Shown here: in pieces, positions 17,200-25,959 of the stretch
Position numbering within the stretch: the stretch's first letter is position 1
Layout of the letters: every line of letters begins with the position of its first letter
Source of the DNA: a virus
IMG/VR virus record: IMGVR_UViG_3300017987_000324
Location: 1 to 26,232 of that record
Reading direction: 5' to 3' (one strand)
Length of the DNA stretch: 26,232 nt
The notes under the pieces: model-generated
Told to the model about the DNA's origin: nothing
The model's input: only the letters and a program-made list of their open reading frames with translations
The model's database searches: none
Made by a program: the position numbers and the translations under genes

Positions 17200-17738
17200 C
17201 TTTTAATATTCACCGGAATGGATTCCAGGTTAATAGTATTGAGTTCATCCCTTACCTCTTGCCCGAATAAGCGAAGAGTTTCAGGGTCCTTGATATGTTT
17301 AATGGCAACAGCGGCGACCTTCTCAGCCACGTCATCTATTATCCGGTGATTGACATTAACCGTCACTTCCTTTGAGAACTCGTGCTTAAACTTTCGCTCG
17401 AGCCACCACTGCGATGCCTTGTTACCTTGCTGTCCCTTGACGACATGAGAACGCTTGCTCCTCAGAGCCCTCTCTTCAACTGCATAGCGAAAGTTACAAT
17501 AGTTGGTCCGGTACCAATGGTTGACCGTAGCAAATGGCATCTTTAAAATACCCGCCGCATCCTCAAGAGTCACGCCGGCGAATACGTTATCAAGAATGAC
17601 GGTGACAATTGGCTCCAGAAATCCTGTAGCCGCCTGTTCCTTTTCACTCGGGTAGTAAAGCTCTTGCGGTGTTACCGCTGGGACTAACGCACTGACTGAG
17701 TTCTCAAGCTGGTCGCTAACCACATCACCTTCTGCCAA
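17196..17738 (-). CDS. terS: Terminase small subunit-like protein
   Basis: A 180-residue protein placed directly before terL and predicted to recognise packaging DNA. Residues about 45-80 form a helix-turn-helix (VTLEDAAGILKMPFATVNHW). The segment KGQQGNKASQWWLERKFKHE with the following FSKEVTVNV strand is typical of small terminases. The start is a TTG with GGAG 8 bases upstream. This start makes it overlap the radical-SAM gene by 55 bases, and no internal ATG precedes the HTH. The overlap physically links the modification cassette to the packaging genes. Confidence 0.85.
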   Translation of the reverse strand: MAEGDVVSDQLENSVSALVPAVTPQELYYPSEKEQAATGFLEPIVTVILDNVFAGVTLEDAAGILKMPFATVNHWYRTNYCNFRYAVEERALRSKRSHVVKGQQGNKASQWWLERKFKHEFSKEVTVNVNHRIIDDVAEKVAAVAIKHIKDPETLRLFGQEVRDELNTINLESIPVNIKR

Positions 17739-18625
17739 TCTTTCATCTCCGGTTCACTGTTAAAAATAAATTCCTCAATGTTATAGCCAGGCCTCTTGGG
17801 ATAAACTTTGAATCCATTGACCAGCTTTGAATAAAAATTTGCCTGAGCTAGGTCAATAATCTCGAACTCTTCCTGAAGAAGAGAAGACGGCACAAAGGTT
17901 GGCTTGGTACGGGCCACTTCGCCTGACGTGTAGGCACCATCTGCAGGTGCGCCGTATGGATAGTAAAATTGACCTGGCGAATACCACAGACCATTGTTAA
18001 AATGGATGGGCCTGTTCATTGACCGCGTCTTCATCCACTCAGCGTTTTCAGCTATGGTCGCCTTCGTCTCTCCTTCGAGCAAAGTCATGTTGAGGTAGCA
18101 TATCTCGATTGGCCCTGTCTGCAAATCTTTCTTGCCCACCTTACGGTATAGGCAAATGTTTTCAAGACCTATCTCGAGGACACGGCAACCGCATTCATAC
18201 AAAAACTTGGCTCCATACATATCAAGCATGCGCTGGACATTTTTATATGTGCTCATCGCCAGCCACTTGACCCTGTTTTCTTTCAGGAGGAGGAGAGCAT
18301 TTGTTATCTCACTGTGGGCGAAGAAATCTTCGTCTATAAAATGCACACACTCGTCTTTATACTTGGGGATGATGACCCGCGGGTCCCCTTCAACTCTACT
18401 GCCTTTGTGCTCAGCGGCTGTGGGACAGAAGGCGCATTTATTATGACACCCCATAGACATCATGGCCGGCATGGCATGGGTGTATGGGTATACATGCAAG
18501 TCAGCGTCAGGCGTTTTCCAAAATGGATTTTCTTCCTGCACCTCCCTGAACTGCTCAATGGGAATAGCACCACGCTTCAAGGCGTTCACCCAATAGTCTA
18601 CCGGCGGCATTAATCCTATCTTCAT
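17684..18625 (-). CDS. Radical-SAM protein at the end of the modification cassette
   Basis: A 313-residue enzyme with the [4Fe-4S] motif CxxxCxxC at Cys60, Cys64 and Cys67 (SMGCHNKCAFCPTA). It also has an ECVHFIDEDFF strand and VLEIGLENICLY, both in keeping with a radical-SAM barrel. The 55 residues before the cluster are a partial N-terminal region, and the C-terminal part (from about 200) is Tyr/Phe/Pro-rich. The substrate is unknown. It sits last in the preQ0/DpdA operon, overlapping the methyltransferase-like gene by 4 bases, which suggests a shared pathway. It is not QueE, which is present separately. It could modify the base further, or act on RNA or protein. Confidence 0.85.
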   Translation of the reverse strand: MKIGLMPPVDYWVNALKRGAIPIEQFREVQEENPFWKTPDADLHVYPYTHAMPAMMSMGCHNKCAFCPTAAEHKGSRVEGDPRVIIPKYKDECVHFIDEDFFAHSEITNALLLLKENRVKWLAMSTYKNVQRMLDMYGAKFLYECGCRVLEIGLENICLYRKVGKKDLQTGPIEICYLNMTLLEGETKATIAENAEWMKTRSMNRPIHFNNGLWYSPGQFYYPYGAPADGAYTSGEVARTKPTFVPSSLLQEEFEIIDLAQANFYSKLVNGFKVYPKRPGYNIEEFIFNSEPEMKDWQKVMWLATSLRTQSVR

Positions 18626-19035
18626 GGATGCACCAATACCCAGTCTTCGCCGTCTTCAGTTACGATTGGGCGTATCTCATGTGTGTACCCAAACTCTTCA
18701 GCCATATCTAGCTCGCCGTGTCCGCAAAGTATTCCTTCCGGCCGAACACTGTCCCACCACGAGGCTATTAAATTACGAGTAGGTTCGTGTATGTATATAA
18801 AGTCAACCGAGCCATCGTCAAACAGCTCACCAGCTTCATACACATTCTCCCAGATGTTAACAGATGTTGGGAACCGGTCAAGCTCTTCGCCTATGCGGTA
18901 CAACTTACGCCCGTTCCAATGGTGTAACATTTCATTGGCGAAGTCTCTGTCCTTTGGTCCCAGTTCAACCGCCCTCTTCTTCAACCCCATCAGCACGGCG
19001 AGATTGATTATGTCGAGTCTTGTCTTTAATAGCAT
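18622..19035 (-). CDS. Degenerate SAM-methyltransferase-like protein
   Basis: A 137-residue protein that looks like a small Methyltransf_24-type Rossmann domain. Residues 22-34 (AVELGPKDRDFAN) occupy motif I, SVDFIYIHEP (76-85) the acidic strand, and VRPEGILCGHGEL (97-109) the following loop and strand. The glycine pattern of motif I is poor: the expected second glycine is Asp or Arg, and the usual acidic ribose-binding strand reads LYRIGEEL. SAM binding is therefore doubtful. It may be an inactive partner or a repurposed fold. AGGA lies 5 bases before the ATG. It overlaps the radical-SAM gene (ATGA). Confidence 0.65.
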   Translation of the reverse strand: MLLKTRLDIINLAVLMGLKKRAVELGPKDRDFANEMLHHWNGRKLYRIGEELDRFPTSVNIWENVYEAGELFDDGSVDFIYIHEPTRNLIASWWDSVRPEGILCGHGELDMAEEFGYTHEIRPIVTEDGEDWVLVHP

Positions 19036-19036
19036 G

Positions 19037-19909
19037 TTATCCTATAAGGTTGAAAAATTCTGCGCGCTGTGCGGCATCATCTCTAAACGAACCAATCAAC
19101 GCGCTGGTTTTCATCACACTGTTCTGTTTTTGAACGCCTCGTCCGCACATACATAAGTGCTTGGCTTCGACTACAACGCCGACACCTCGGCATCCTTTGA
19201 CATGTTTGAATATGGCATCGGCTACCTGACGGGTCATGGTTTCCTGTATCTGGAGTCTGCGAGCGTATATCTCTACGAGACGCGCCAGCTTCGATAGGCC
19301 AACCACAAACTTCCCTGGCAGGTAGCCGATATGAACTTGACCATGGAAAGGAATCATGTGGTGCTCACATGTTGAATAAAATTCTATCCCCTTGCAGATG
19401 ACCATCTCATCGCTTTTCGTTTCAAAGATTTTTGAAAGAACTTCCTTGGGGTCCTTCTTATATCCACCGTAAACCTCCTTCCATGAACGCACCACCCTGG
19501 CAGGGGTTTCAAGAAGACCGGACCGGCTGGGGTCATCACCTATGTGCTCAATGACTCTGGTGATAAGTTTCTCAGCGTCGCTTTCCTTGCTAGTCTCCCA
19601 TGGAAACACTATCCAGAAATCCTGGTTCTCGAATGGCGCATAGAATGGCTTACCGAACCTCTCTATGTACTCGTCTCGCGTCTGTCCGCTGTCAATAACA
19701 TCGTCCACGATGATGTCTGCCATCTCGGGACCATCTCCATTGTGTAGTTGGCGTGCCAGCCCCAAGCTGTCGAGGATGTATGCAATGAACCAGCCTCCCC
19801 TTGGCACACCATAGACAATTGGCTTCTCCTTGCCTCCTGTGGCATGCGGGAATGTGCGGGACAATATGCTTTCCAGTTCTGTTATGCTTACTCTAATTAT
19901 ATTTCTCAT
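19037..19909 (-). CDS. folE: Phosphoribosyltransferase-GTP cyclohydrolase I fusion
   Basis: A 290-residue two-domain protein. Residues about 1-105 resemble a purine-type phosphoribosyltransferase: IVYGVPRGGW (31-40) and the PRPP loop DDVIDSGQT (69-77). Residues about 110-290 are a complete GTP cyclohydrolase I, which makes dihydroneopterin triphosphate from GTP, the first step to preQ0. It has LLETPARVV, Zn ligands in CEHH (Cys181, His184) and HLCMCGRGV (near Cys253), GLSKLARLVEIYARRLQIQE and GSFRDD. FolE alone is usually about 180-220 residues. The ATG overlaps the queE stop (ATGA). The fused PRTase may recycle guanine released by DpdA into GMP; this is inference. Confidence 0.93.
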   Translation of the reverse strand: MRNIIRVSITELESILSRTFPHATGGKEKPIVYGVPRGGWFIAYILDSLGLARQLHNGDGPEMADIIVDDVIDSGQTRDEYIERFGKPFYAPFENQDFWIVFPWETSKESDAEKLITRVIEHIGDDPSRSGLLETPARVVRSWKEVYGGYKKDPKEVLSKIFETKSDEMVICKGIEFYSTCEHHMIPFHGQVHIGYLPGKFVVGLSKLARLVEIYARRLQIQETMTRQVADAIFKHVKGCRGVGVVVEAKHLCMCGRGVQKQNSVMKTSALIGSFRDDAAQRAEFFNLIG

Positions 19910-20460
19910 GCTATGCCTATGATTTTATGTGTCTGCAGTGACAGTCCCCAGTCGGGGTTCATCTTTACCATGCCTATACATTCGGCAAGGTTGTTTCGGT
20001 TGTACTCAGGTTGAAGGTAGTAGTGGTCAAACTCAGTGCCCTGATAATACTCCTCAAGATTTTCAGCCCCAGTGTATACCAGCTTGAGCTCGTTACCTTT
20101 TCTCACTTTGAAGTCAGGTGTCTTCGGGCTAACCGTCACCCACGCCTTGTTGAATATATCGCTTTCAATTGTGCCGTTGGTTTCTATGAACATGCGGTAT
20201 CCATGCGCCTTTAACTTGCATGCCAATGCCATGTCGAATTGGAGGAGTGGCTCTCCGCCAGTAAGTACAATGTTTCGGCACTGATAGGCCATGACCTCTT
20301 TGTATATATCATCGAACCCCATCTCAAACTTAACCTCATGGTTTGTGTCGCACCATTGGCAGTTAAGATTGCATCCGGCGAAGCGAATGAACAAAGCGGC
20401 CATGCCTGAGTTAGCTCCTTCCCCCTGGATGGAGTAGAATATTTCGTTGAGCTTATACAT
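19906..20460 (-). CDS. queE: 7-carboxy-7-deazaguanine synthase (QueE)
   Basis: A radical-SAM enzyme converting 6-carboxytetrahydropterin to 7-carboxy-7-deazaguanine, the ring-contraction step to preQ0. It shows NEIFYSIQGEG at the N-terminus, the CNLNCQWCD cluster motif (CxxxCxxC), LTGGEPLLQ, and ETNGT followed by SPKT and LKLV strands. From the ATG at 20458-20460 it is 184 residues. An upstream ATG at 20476-20478 adds six residues but increases overlap with queD, and neither start has a strong Shine-Dalgarno. I prefer the shorter form because family members begin close to NEIF. It overlaps queD by 8 bases and folE by 4. Confidence 0.95.
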   Translation of the reverse strand: MYKLNEIFYSIQGEGANSGMAALFIRFAGCNLNCQWCDTNHEVKFEMGFDDIYKEVMAYQCRNIVLTGGEPLLQFDMALACKLKAHGYRMFIETNGTIESDIFNKAWVTVSPKTPDFKVRKGNELKLVYTGAENLEEYYQGTEFDHYYLQPEYNRNNLAECIGMVKMNPDWGLSLQTHKIIGIA

Positions 20461-20797
20461 AGGGATTGCCCGCTTCATAGATGGCTACGTTATTCGATGA
20501 CTCAATCACTTTTGCCTTCCAACATTCCGGCACTGTCTCCGTTATCCACTTGGCGATGTTCTCGGCAGTGGGGTTGAATGGCAGCATCTCATTGAGATGT
20601 TTATGGTCGAGCACGCCATGTACAAGGTCTTTGAGTTTCTTGAAGTCAATCACCATGCCATACTCGTCTACCATTTCCGCTTTGCAGTATACAGTGATTA
20701 TCCAGTTGTGGCCATGCACTCTTCCGCATGGGCTGTCATAAGGTAGGTTGAGCTGGTGTGAGCCAGCCAACTCGAATGTCTTTTCGATATAATACAT
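20453..20797 (-). CDS. queD: 6-carboxy-5,6,7,8-tetrahydropterin synthase (QueD)
   Basis: A 114-residue T-fold enzyme that converts dihydroneopterin triphosphate to 6-carboxytetrahydropterin. Zn ligands are His14 (AGSHQL), His28 and His30 in CGRVHGHNW; Cys24 is the catalytic cysteine. DHKHLNE (64-70) and PTAENIA (77-83) are the standard QueD/PTPS signatures, and Glu99 in VIESSNN anchors the pterin. The length is normal. AGGAGG stands 4 bases before the ATG, the best ribosome binding site inside the cassette. It follows the glycosyltransferase gene with only an 8-base gap. Confidence 0.95.
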   Translation of the reverse strand: MYYIEKTFELAGSHQLNLPYDSPCGRVHGHNWIITVYCKAEMVDEYGMVIDFKKLKDLVHGVLDHKHLNEMLPFNPTAENIAKWITETVPECWKAKVIESSNNVAIYEAGNPYV

Positions 20798-20805
20798 ACA
20801 TCCTC

Positions 20806-21675
20806 CTATAAGAATGAGTTGTCAATAGAACCAATAAATTGCTGTAGCTTATTGTAGAGGTGGCGACATACTGACGCCCTCCCCTTCATTGAGCGAGTGA
20901 CGGCCCAGTCTATGCACGATATGTAATTAGGGCCGCGGAAATAAACCTCGGGCAAGCTCCGTCCATATATCTCGGGATAGCATAGCCCGTCTACCATCAC
21001 TGGGATGACCCCGTTCTGTATGCACTCGATAACACTGATGCCCAATGTCTCTTTGCGCGCTGGAAAAACTGAGCACCTGTAACGGCGTAGCATTTCGATG
21101 TATCTATCCTTGGATGTGTTCCCCTCTTCCAAACGCAGGCACTCAATCCCTGGCACACCCTTCACCACGTCATACCCTTTGTCCTCAGAAAGGCGGCCGG
21201 TAAAACACACATCACCAGACTTAATCCACTCAGTGGTAGGTGGGATGCTATAGTCGATGTATGGAAAGGCCGTAACCCTCACATTAGTTAAGTGAGGATA
21301 CTTGGCAAGGATGAGGTCCTTATGCCATTGAGTGGCAACGAATATCTTTTTATAGAGTGGGAAGTTCTCCAACTCAATCGCCTCAGCCTCGGCGTTGCCA
21401 TAATCAAAGTCATAGGGCTCATAGCTTCCGCCGTGAGCGAAGCCGTACACATCACCATCCAATTGAGTGATGTCCATACGGCATATATCAGTAACGATAT
21501 ATTCGCTCGAAGGCGGAGCTGTCATGGGTGTGGCTTCTTTGAGTTCATCAATCCAGTTATGGTCATACCCTATTAGCCTCTGGAAGATAGCGGTGTCAAC
21601 ATGCTTGAGCAAGCGCCTTGCAAAATAAGCTGACCAATTCGTCTCAGTGTAAAATGGAACGATCAGACATTTCAT
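20806..21675 (-). CDS. GT-B (GT4-like) glycosyltransferase coupled to the DpdA gene
   Basis: A 289-residue protein with a GT-B layout. The N-terminal Rossmann-like half includes VDTAIFQRLIGYDHNWIDEL and KKIFVATQWHKDLILAKYP. The linker FPYIDYSIPP is followed by VCFTGRLSEDKGYDVVKGV (156-174). The donor-site EX7E motif is Glu209 and Glu217 in ETLGISVIEC, within SVFPARKETLGIS. It is shorter than typical GT4 enzymes (about 350-400), with small linker regions. The ATG overlaps the dpdA stop (ATGA), so the two products are made together. A role in glycosylating modified DNA is inferred from this coupling; cell-surface or virion glycosylation is an alternative. Confidence 0.85.
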   Translation of the reverse strand: MKCLIVPFYTETNWSAYFARRLLKHVDTAIFQRLIGYDHNWIDELKEATPMTAPPSSEYIVTDICRMDITQLDGDVYGFAHGGSYEPYDFDYGNAEAEAIELENFPLYKKIFVATQWHKDLILAKYPHLTNVRVTAFPYIDYSIPPTTEWIKSGDVCFTGRLSEDKGYDVVKGVPGIECLRLEEGNTSKDRYIEMLRRYRCSVFPARKETLGISVIECIQNGVIPVMVDGLCYPEIYGRSLPEVYFRGPNYISCIDWAVTRSMKGRASVCRHLYNKLQQFIGSIDNSFL

Positions 21676-22538
21676 TGTAGTAAACTCCTGTACTTCTTAT
21701 AGTCAAAATATTGACCGTCCTTGCTATCAAGAACAGCCATGAGATGTTTCCAATACGCCCCGCTGTCGGCTAGATGTATGTATCGGTCATAGCACCGAGC
21801 ATAGTCAGAGGAAGCATTGAGATATGCGTTCATTGAGTAGGCGCATGAGAATGCCTTGGCCCCTACAGTTAGTTGCTTGTTTTGGATGAGCTCCTTCGCG
21901 TTGGTGTTACATTTACCAGCCGCCTCAACCAGCTCCATGCTGGGACCATTCCTCTTGATAAAAGACGCTATCATATTGAATTTCTTTTTCCGATAGTCAT
22001 ACTCTACCACGCGCCCATACTTGGACCCTGAGATAAAGGTGCTTGAATCGGCCGAGTAGATAGGGAGCTTCAATATGCCAGGCAGTTGGACATAGGCTAA
22101 GGCGTGTATCTTAATGTCCTTGAACGTATACTTTGCCATGCGGCATCGGTAAAGGAAATCAGCTCTATCTCTTCGGCCGCCTGATATACATACATACTTA
22201 TTGCTGTTCTCATAGTACCAGCGAAAGTCTTCGATGCTGTCACCCTCTATCCATATAGGGATAGGCTCTAGGCCGGCGTCCAGCATAGCCTTGTAGTTAT
22301 CCTTGCTCTTAGCTGGTGATCGGATAACGTCCAGCATGATGTACTTATCAGTGTACTGCTTTATCTGCTTACAAAAAGCTATGTACTCTTTCACTGTGAT
22401 GTTGGCACCACACTTATAAGCAGTGAAGGCCCCTGAGTCAATCATTAGGTTGACCCGGTCGGCGTTGTCCAATATTTCATTGAACGTCTTGCCCGCCTGC
22501 TTGGCGTACCAATACGATATGAGATAGCTAGGCTTCAT
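21672..22538 (-). CDS. dpdA: DpdA-like DNA guanine transglycosylase (TGT-fold)
   Basis: This 288-residue protein is predicted to swap guanine in DNA for preQ0, as DpdA does. The sequence follows a shortened tRNA-guanine transglycosylase barrel. LMIDSGAFTAY carries Asp34 in the place of TGT's DSGGFQ. Asp70 in IMLDVI and CISGGRRDR (near 117-124) correspond to base-recognition loops. Asp164 in YSADSSTF is the candidate nucleophile, matching the S-x-D-S pattern of phage DpdA proteins. It is shorter than tRNA TGT (about 370 residues) and lacks the cysteine cluster that binds zinc there. It overlaps queC by 11 bases; its ribosome binding site is weak. Substrate is inferred from context. Confidence 0.88.
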   Translation of the reverse strand: MKPSYLISYWYAKQAGKTFNEILDNADRVNLMIDSGAFTAYKCGANITVKEYIAFCKQIKQYTDKYIMLDVIRSPAKSKDNYKAMLDAGLEPIPIWIEGDSIEDFRWYYENSNKYVCISGGRRDRADFLYRCRMAKYTFKDIKIHALAYVQLPGILKLPIYSADSSTFISGSKYGRVVEYDYRKKKFNMIASFIKRNGPSMELVEAAGKCNTNAKELIQNKQLTVGAKAFSCAYSMNAYLNASSDYARCYDRYIHLADSGAYWKHLMAVLDSKDGQYFDYKKYRSLLQ

Positions 22539-23190
22539 AGACAGTAGGGTCCTTCACCCCAGCCAGTTGGAACGCTTCCCTTCTCTCTACGCATGCACCA
22601 CACTTGCCACAGTGAACGTACTTACCCTTATAGCATGTCCATGTATACTTGAACGGAACTTCAAGTTTATCGCCCAGCTTGACTATGTCAGCTTTACTCA
22701 TGCCAAGGAACGGTGCTTTAATAGCTACTATGTCGCTGGTCCCTAATTTGACAGCCCTGTCCATAGCATGTATGTATTCAGCTCTGCAGTCAGGATAAAC
22801 AGCGTGGTCCCCGCCATGTGCCCCTATATAGACACTGCTCATACCATTGTTATCAGCATAGCCCGCGGCTATTGATAGCATGATGCCATTCCTGAAAGGA
22901 ACGATAGTATCTATCATGGTAGGTGACTCGTAGTGGCCCTCCGGTATAGGACCTCCGTCCGCCATCAGCGCTGATTGGCTTATAGCCGGCATGAAGTCGA
23001 GCGGGATAACCATTCGGTCAACATCGGCCACCGCACAGATAGAGGTTGCATGTATGGCCTCTTGGATGTTGTGCTTTGAACCATAGGTAAAGCTAATAGC
23101 TGTGACCTTGTGCCCCTCCTTGAGGAGCTGATAAAGCAGGACGGTAGAGTCGATACCGCCTGAGTGTATAAGCACTACATTCTCAGACAT
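22528..23190 (-). CDS. queC: 7-cyano-7-deazaguanine synthase (QueC)
   Basis: A 220-residue enzyme that turns 7-carboxy-7-deazaguanine into preQ0 with ATP and ammonia. The N-type ATP pyrophosphatase P-loop SGGIDS is at 10-15. FTYGSKH, DTIVPFRNGIMLSIAAGYA (94-112), IGAHGGDHAVYPDCR and the C-terminal zinc site with Cys186, Cys194, Cys197 and Cys200 (in CYKGKYVHCGKCGACVERR) are all present. It is a plain QueC with no fused amidotransferase domain. The ATG overlaps the ParB-like gene by 8 bases. The whole family signature is intact. Confidence 0.97.
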   Translation of the reverse strand: MSENVVLIHSGGIDSTVLLYQLLKEGHKVTAISFTYGSKHNIQEAIHATSICAVADVDRMVIPLDFMPAISQSALMADGGPIPEGHYESPTMIDTIVPFRNGIMLSIAAGYADNNGMSSVYIGAHGGDHAVYPDCRAEYIHAMDRAVKLGTSDIVAIKAPFLGMSKADIVKLGDKLEVPFKYTWTCYKGKYVHCGKCGACVERREAFQLAGVKDPTVYEA

Positions 23191-23752
23191 TGACTGTTAT
23201 CCCTTCGTCAGGCCACGTCCCTTCTATCATGCCACGGATGGAGGTCAATACATCGTCGTATAAAGCGTGGTTGGTTACGACCACTTTAATCTCATAGGGT
23301 TTTAGCCCTGGGTTCTCCGGTGGTGTTTCTTCATCTTCAAAGTTAAAGTCTGGAACCTCCAGCTCATTGAGCAGTAAGCTCATCTTCTCTTCGTCTTCCA
23401 TCTCTTCAAGAATAGCTTGGAGCTTTTCATTATCCCAGTCGCCTGTTATCCCTGTATAGTTAAGCGCTACATTCAGCGCCTTCTCTTTCACTTCAGGAAG
23501 ATCGACTACGATAACATCTGTCTCTTCGACGCCCTTGCGAGTAAGGTCATACAAGCGCTGGTGCCCACCGACTATCACACCGGTGCGCTTATTCCAGATG
23601 ATGGGCTGAACCAATCCGAATGTATCTATTGAATTGCTCAATCCTTCCCGCGCCTTGTCAGTCATTACTCTAGGATTGTATCCAGCCGGCTTCAGCTCGG
23701 CTATGTTCATCCTCTGCATATCGACCAGCCCCAGCTTACTTTTATCTTCCAC
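23183..23752 (-). CDS. ParB/sulfiredoxin-fold protein at the head of the modification operon
   Basis: A 189-residue protein. Residues about 15-110 form a ParB N-terminal-like domain: MNIAELKPAGYNPRVM, IDTFGLVQPIIWN, and the nucleotide-binding VIVGGHQRLYDL (59-70). The C-terminal part is acidic and helical and then beta-like (EIKVVVTN). There is no helix-turn-helix as in partition ParB. The start is a GTG with AGGAGG 4 bases upstream; internal ATGs at residues 12 and 15 are possible alternatives. It lies just downstream of a putative promoter. Small ParB-like proteins commonly neighbour phage DNA-modifying enzymes, and the bacterial Dpd system needs DpdB beside DpdA in some cases. A helper role for DpdA is inferred. 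Confidence 0.82.
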   Translation of the reverse strand: MEDKSKLGLVDMQRMNIAELKPAGYNPRVMTDKAREGLSNSIDTFGLVQPIIWNKRTGVIVGGHQRLYDLTRKGVEETDVIVVDLPEVKEKALNVALNYTGITGDWDNEKLQAILEEMEDEEKMSLLLNELEVPDFNFEDEETPPENPGLKPYEIKVVVTNHALYDDVLTSIRGMIEGTWPDEGITVNV

Positions 23753-25300: not shown

Positions 25301-25462
25301 TTACTCAATCATCTTCCTGATTTCTTTTGCCACTCTCCATCTATCCACGCCCAACAACTCGCCTATGTCTGCCATTGAATAATTAAAAGTTGTGTACCAA
25401 TACAAAATTTTCTTCCGGTCTTCGTCGGTGAGTATGCGGGTCTTTGAACCTTTGGGCCTCAC
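25301..25462 (-). CDS. Small helix-turn-helix protein (GTG start, 53 aa)
   Basis: This short gene starts with GTG at 25460-25462, overlapping the radical-SAM stop (GTGA). GGAGG stands 4 bases upstream, and the gene ends at TAA 25301-25303. It reads VRPKGSKTRILTDEDRKKIL, then YWYTTFNYSMADIGELLGVD, then RWRVAKEIRKMIE. The last 26 residues form a clear helix-turn-helix (SMADIGELLGV as first helix and turn, DRWRVAKEIRKM as recognition helix), as in resolvase or homeodomain-like DNA-binding proteins. It is tightly packed between its neighbours. It may regulate phage transcription, with the dyads at 23941 and 24163 as possible targets, but that link is speculative. Confidence 0.78.
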   Translation of the reverse strand: MRPKGSKTRILTDEDRKKILYWYTTFNYSMADIGELLGVDRWRVAKEIRKMIE

Positions 25463-25959
25463 TCGTCCTCCTCGACGCATCTCATAAATACTTCGTCTTT
25501 GGGTAGTGGGCAGTTTTCAATCCATTCGATATTATCTTTCACCGCCCATCCTTTTGGGATTTGTGATATATAAACGCCTTTGAATATATTCACCCGCAGG
25601 CTTCGCTTTATACCATTCGTGAAACTGGCAAATGCTTTGAAAGGCAATACATCTCTCTGGGTGTGAAGAGTTATGGTTATCCCGTCCAGGGCGTTCAATA
25701 AATCAATCGACTCATTAATCCGATACTTCACCATGGCCGTATATAAATATATCTCGGCCTTGCTCTCCCTCCTTATGTCGCGGATGACGCTATGCACACG
25801 GTCAACATATAGCATCGGCTCGCCACCGGTCAGCATAATTTCGCTGTAAGGCGAATAGTCCACGCAGTAGGGAAGGTCCTTCAAGTTCCACTGCTTATTG
25901 CAACAACCCTGGCAGTTACGGTTGCAATCTTCCCAAAGCAAAAGTCTCAGCTTACTCAT
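25459..25959 (-). CDS. Compact radical-SAM protein
   Basis: A 166-residue protein with Cys12, Cys16 and Cys19 in WEDCNRNCQGCC and the SAM-binding IMLTGGEPML (GGEP at 45-48), then strands AEIYLYTAM and GITITLH. It is only slightly more than half a usual radical-SAM barrel, like QueE or NrdG-type activases. It lacks QueE's N-terminal IQGEG motif, and a bona fide QueE is encoded elsewhere. It overlaps the upstream gene's stop (ATGA), with GGAGG 8 bases before the ATG. The substrate is unknown. Confidence 0.82.
   Translation of the reverse strand: MSKLRLLLWEDCNRNCQGCCNKQWNLKDLPYCVDYSPYSEIMLTGGEPMLYVDRVHSVIRDIRRESKAEIYLYTAMVKYRINESIDLLNALDGITITLHTQRDVLPFKAFASFTNGIKRSLRVNIFKGVYISQIPKGWAVKDNIEWIENCPLPKDEVFMRCVEEDE

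Follow-up and report, generated by a model that had tools for sequence, protein, structure and literature searches.

The window, i.e. the whole stretch of DNA that was analysed (26,232 bases), corresponds to an entire IMG/VR record, a linear and fragmentary contig. Its source is a tailed phage: the large terminase, portal, tape measure and major head protein are recognised, although the large terminase shares at best about 30% identity with those of known phages. On the minus strand, nine genes run from 23752 to 17684 in the order ParB-QueC-DpdA-GT-QueD-QueE-FolE-orf-rSAM, GT being the glycosyltransferase of interest in this study. Neighbouring genes overlap or are separated by gaps of at most 8 bases. 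The features of this run are:

23183..23752, minus strand: ParB-like domain protein (Pfam/PHROG comparison)
22528..23190, minus strand: QueC, preQ0 synthase (Pfam QueC, 5.1e-65); 11-base overlap with dpdA
21672..22538, minus strand: DpdA, predicted DNA deazaguanine transglycosylase of the TGT superfamily, 288 aa; DSGAF motif
21672..21675, minus strand: ATGA stop/start overlap of dpdA and GT, 4 shared bases
20806..21675, minus strand: GT, GT-B/GT4-like, of the deazaguanine-cluster family, 289 aa; R161/K166 donor site and EX7E motif (E209..E217)
20453..20797, minus strand: QueD, 6-carboxytetrahydropterin synthase (Pfam PTPS, 2.8e-26); starts 8 bases past GT
19906..20478, minus strand: QueE, 7-carboxy-7-deazaguanine synthase, radical SAM (PHROG 2076, 2.1e-31)
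19037..19909, minus strand: FolE, GTP cyclohydrolase I (Pfam GTP_cyclohydroI, 3.3e-69)
18622..19035, minus strand: small ORF within the run, matching neither Pfam nor PHROG
17684..18625, minus strand: weak radical-SAM-like ORF with CX3CX2C, last in the run

FolE, QueD, QueE and QueC constitute a complete gene set for preQ0. Together with DpdA, the same genes make up the phage 7-deazaguanine modification systems of 9g, CAjan and Rosebush (Hutinet 2019, PMC6884629), from which the window differs by the insertion of GT between dpdA and queD; neither glycosylation nor sugars came up in a text search of their description. In many related operons, too, dpdA is preceded by a ParB-like gene. The last two members of the run are uncertain as members of the pathway, both the small ORF and the radical-SAM-like ORF, for which no counterpart was found in related operons. 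A further small radical-SAM-like ORF lies beyond the operon at 25459-25959 (Fer4_12, E=4.6e-7).

The DpdA of the window matches PHROG 887 (queuine tRNA-ribosyltransferase) at 1.9e-29, and its DSGAF and D-S-S motifs align with those in DpdA of CAjan, NP1 and R7M. The 3' end of dpdA reads ...CTA CAA TGA, the GT start codon is the ATG within CAATGA, and an AGGAG lies upstream; the overlap suggests that translation of the two genes may be coupled. The first-pass annotation had described a GT-B enzyme with an EX7E motif that overlaps the dpdA stop by 4 bases, and the overlap and operon layout seen here, as well as the motif and the fold model, confirm this description.

A glycosyltransferase family of deazaguanine clusters

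In sequence comparisons the window GT is a divergent protein. Its match to Pfam Glycos_transf_1 (PF00534) has E=8e-6 and 25.9 bits, with a curated cut-off of 26.4; phmmer against the PDB gives no useful match; and in the family alignment the protein is shorter than its relatives and shares 19-28% identity with them. A family profile made without the window still retrieves it at E=2.4e-22. The AlphaFold model (49 sequences) has the two Rossmann domains of the GT-B fold (pLDDT 76.9, pTM 0.80), and its best PDB fold matches are SenB, BshA, PimA, WaaG and other GT4-type enzymes.

The EX7E motif of the window GT is E209-TLGISVI-E217. Among 49 family members, D63, H81, G83, D89, E101, R161, K166, K189, E209 and E217 are invariant. 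When 31 further relatives are compared with the window, D89, E101, R161, K166, K189 and E217 remain so, H81 is present in 28 of the 32 sequences, and D replaces E209 in 11. Judged by these residues, GT looks like an active enzyme that depends on a nucleotide sugar.

The alpha- and beta-glucosyltransferases of phage T4, which act on hydroxymethylcytosine, share the GT-B fold with GT and add a sugar to a phage base after replication, as is proposed for GT. However, the base would here be a deazaguanine and not a pyrimidine, and the best fold matches are of the GT4 type: T4 AGT and BGT are absent from the 50 best PDB matches, and there is no sequence match either. In its proposed type of substrate, GT would resemble the animal enzymes QTMAN and QTGAL, which mannosylate or galactosylate tRNA queuosine and thus place a sugar on a 7-deazaguanine nucleoside. 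According to PMC12518689, the acceptor groups of these enzymes are hydroxyls on the cyclopentene of tRNA queuosine; in the clusters inspected here, we noticed no enzymes that complete queuosine.

Gene neighbourhoods of the family

The window GT matches 14 out of 50,697 phage records, which belong to three types: Wroclawvirus (PA5oct/Paride-like), ACP17 and Phosso. Five records, with each type represented, were inspected, and every one has GT inside a deazaguanine cluster; the same holds for phages X1 and BUCT-ZZ01, whose family members are more distant. A system for deazaguanine synthesis and incorporation has been recorded for PA5oct (Iyer 2021, PMC7824862); none of the passages found in that study ties a glycosyltransferase to it, and glycosyltransferase genes are treated there within polysaccharide clusters. 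Our literature search, of limited coverage and partial texts, found no link between a glycosyltransferase and phage deazaguanine clusters, and an earlier mention is possible.

Scans of IMG/VR with the single sequence of the window GT or of the window DpdA gave no matches, and profiles were needed. With a GT profile built from the phage-record matches, at least 444 relatives were found in IMG/VR, and 80 loci, which are related to one another, were kept. All 80 contain at least one deazaguanine-type gene near GT. Where the contig extends at least 4 kb beyond GT on both sides, a DpdA-like gene is present in 44 of 44 loci, as are two or more of DpdA, FolE and QueE; the DpdA-like gene lies on the GT strand in 74 out of 74 cases. 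GT is a member of a previously unnamed glycosyltransferase family that is almost always found within phage deazaguanine clusters. A conserved family of about 174 aa (cluster 8; L058:6407-6952 and relatives) occurs in 43 of these 80 loci, and free-standing HGPRT-type PRTase genes occur in 44. A salvage of the guanine released by DpdA through such a PRTase is an attractive idea, but for the similar N-terminal extension of the window FolE, which contains a phosphoribosyltransferase-like loop, the resemblance is weak (E=0.046 with Pfam Pribosyltran, 0.37 in a further comparison).

In 71 of the 80 loci, the DpdA-like gene belongs to a family of about 400-540 aa (e.g. L003:4427-5701, L002:4379-6001), 10 out of 28 scanned members of which are assigned to PHROG 10773, annotated as unknown. 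These proteins carry the motifs DSGGFQ, NVLQG and HxLG and an invariant late Asp. Pfam TGT is matched by 6 of the 28, the family profile also matches TGT structures, and all 50 best PDB fold matches are TGTs; a profile comparison with the window DpdA gives E=4e-4, yet a probability of just 34%. PHROG 10773 and its relatives thus represent a DpdA-like enzyme with the TGT fold.

The association extends to cellular genomes, in which GT and a DpdA-like gene occur together in 11 of 15 loci. In alphaproteobacterial loci, a transporter of the Vut_1 family, to which preQ0 transporters belong, directly precedes GT (Pfam: Shimia, Devosia, Azospirillum). The DpdA-like gene follows GT in Shimia, Thalassobius and two Sulfitobacter loci and precedes it in Devosia. 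The Shimia locus (L108:5343-13789) consists of a MASE1 sensor, the Vut_1 transporter, GT, the DpdA-like gene, a 585-aa protein and a tyrosine recombinase, and is possibly an integrative element that uses salvaged preQ0; the Sulfitobacter and Thalassobius loci (L103, L106) resemble it. For the relatives from Magnetospirillum and Azospirillum, no dpdA was found within about 8 kb. In Magnetospirillum, an Mrr-type restriction endonuclease lies immediately ahead of the GT-family gene (L111:6627-7535).

The second survey took DpdA as its starting point. A profile built from three known phage DpdAs and that of the window yielded 80 other loci, of which 31, including all 17 listed first, contain the GT family. 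These 31 have a fixed order on one strand, DpdA - PTPS-like - GT, followed by QueD - QueE - FolE wherever the contig extends so far, and in many of them a ParB-like gene precedes.

The first-pass annotation had proposed such a survey of whether GT neighbours dpdA, and both surveys strongly favour a deazaguanine role; the outcome that would have spoken against it, homologs lying for the most part next to surface or fibre genes and lacking a dpdA neighbour, was looked for and did not occur. We are therefore highly confident that GT is part of the deazaguanine DNA-modification pathway. It seems very improbable that GT serves another acceptor, such as a surface glycan, a protein or the queuosine of host tRNA, and owes its position to chance or to expression timing. 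Most GT4 enzymes do use other acceptors, and the relative in Paenibacillus is part of an ACP/ATP-grasp cluster that lacks dpdA; but both independent surveys recover the linkage, which holds for two distinct DpdA families and extends to cellular loci, and the reference phages inspected have no annotated surface-glycan genes around GT. A surface-glycan role was rejected on the basis of synteny.

Probable acceptor, donor and order of steps

The second survey also gives the distribution of QueC. It is present in 36 of the 80 DpdA1-type loci, none of which contains GT, and none of the 31 GT loci contains QueC. Counted by loci, this mutual exclusion has p=4e-12 (Fisher), but it weakens when relatives are merged by DpdA identity, to 0.0007 at 60%, 0.012 at 50% (18 clusters) and 0.08 at 40%. 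Furthermore, the PTPS-like gene accompanies GT in 31 of 31 loci and occurs once without it. The operon of that locus is otherwise identical, but where GT would be expected it has a membrane protein (L136:6328-6909) that by eye resembles transporters of the Vut_1 type. The PTPS-like protein (L052:7030-7461 and relatives) is a small T-fold protein with weak similarity to PTPS. It retains H14, H40 and H42, likely zinc ligands, whereas no counterpart to the QueD cysteine appears in its alignment; this residue was apparently lost. The protein may generate the acceptor or bring it into position.

The complete genomes of PA5oct, ACP17, Phosso and BUCT-ZZ01 contain GT, while QueC is undetectable in them, and no QueF reached the cut-off among the 19 records searched. 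Consequently, the pathway encoded by these four phages ends at 7-carboxy-7-deazaguanine (CDG) unless the host helps, and the GT family goes mostly with a CDG-type branch. The first-pass annotation had noted that preQ0 offers no acceptor hydroxyl; this concern was well placed. QueC is missing from every GT locus of the DpdA1-type survey, and the usual acceptor of GT is therefore probably not preQ0 itself but a derivative of CDG. A scheme along these lines, in which a QueC-independent branch has CDG as its end point, the PTPS-like protein remodels CDG or assists in creating an acceptor, and GT adds the sugar, with a window variant that proceeds via QueC, is put forward tentatively; we hold it to be somewhat less probable than its negation.

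The window is an exception, as it combines QueC with GT and the PTPS-like gene was not found in it. One could argue that its GT is an unused relic, left after QueC was gained and the PTPS-like partner lost, so that the DNA would carry plain preQ0. The exclusion of QueC and GT elsewhere, the missing partner and the short, divergent GT sequence are compatible with such a loss of use. We nevertheless regard it as improbable, because the ORF is intact, its start overlaps dpdA, and the donor site and EX7E motif are retained; moreover, the Vut_1 loci and Xanthomonas phage PhiXhv-15 likewise pair GT with another preQ0-related gene and without the PTPS-like gene.

With regard to the sugar donor, an epimerase family occurs in 25 out of 80 GT loci, and the member tested is a UDP-glucose 4-epimerase. 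In PhiXhv-15 (L100:5747-9833), a Gat-QueC fusion, annotated as fructose-6-phosphate aminotransferase, a PIG-L deacetylase, a divergent GT and a Gfo/Idh-type oxidoreductase follow one another. A GT4-fold enzyme and a PIG-L deacetylase also go together in bacillithiol and mycothiol synthesis (BshA/MshA), where however the acceptor is malate or inositol phosphate, while the window GT sits in a deazaguanine cluster. The epimerase and the PIG-L neighbour in PhiXhv-15 suggest UDP-sugars as donors, for instance UDP-Glc, UDP-Gal or UDP-GlcNAc.

The genes, fold classes, conserved sites and near-invariant linkage are direct observations; from them we infer DNA as the acceptor, the 7-substituent as the acceptor site, the donor and a protective purpose. 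According to this model, FolE, QueD and QueE would produce CDG, which QueC would convert to preQ0 in the window phage, and DpdA would exchange guanine in DNA for the deazaguanine. GT would then use a UDP-sugar to glycosylate the position-7 group of the inserted base, in all likelihood with a hexose or N-acetylhexosamine, the order being synthesis, insertion and glycosylation. The sugar would shield the phage DNA from host nucleases. On the basis of synteny we consider it reasonably likely that GT places its sugar on the inserted base, and many phages probably modify a 7-deazaguanine base in DNA in this way. Against this reading stand the pairing of GT with QueC in the window although preQ0 lacks a hydroxyl, the shortness of the window GT and its low identity to its relatives, and the relatives without a nearby dpdA in Magnetospirillum, Paenibacillus and Azospirillum.

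Synteny alone fits glycosylation of DNA and of the free base alike. GT could thus act before insertion, on the deazaguanine while it is still a free base or on a pterin formed earlier in the pathway, with DpdA then inserting the glycosylated base. The PDB fold matches of GT include a tetrahydrobiopterin glucosyltransferase, and the FolE/QueD intermediates are pterins. However, such a base would need to fit a TGT-type pocket, and the alphaproteobacterial loci combine GT, the DpdA-like gene and Vut_1 without FolE, QueD or QueE in the surveyed stretch, which makes a locally encoded pterin step unnecessary. Action before insertion is accordingly judged unlikely, and a pterin acceptor in particular was demoted because GT clusters without FolE, QueD and QueE nearby exist. 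Of the glycosylated deazaguanine in DNA proposed by the first-pass annotation, the assignment to the pathway is strongly supported by both independent synteny surveys; the DNA product keeps its conditional status.

Among the phages with this family are some that can be cultured (Paride and PA5oct, both on P. aeruginosa, as well as ACP17 and X1), and the question is therefore answerable by routine mass spectrometry. To our knowledge, glycosylated purines in DNA would add a further class to the base modifications of phages. If the QueC-independent branch holds as well, many phages would contain glycosylated 7-deazaguanine DNA bases that form a class of their own, new to science. A sugar-bearing deazaguanine in DNA would explain genes so far labelled hypothetical, namely PHROG 10773, the PTPS-like protein and GT, and would help to identify the host defences that GT-carrying phages evade.
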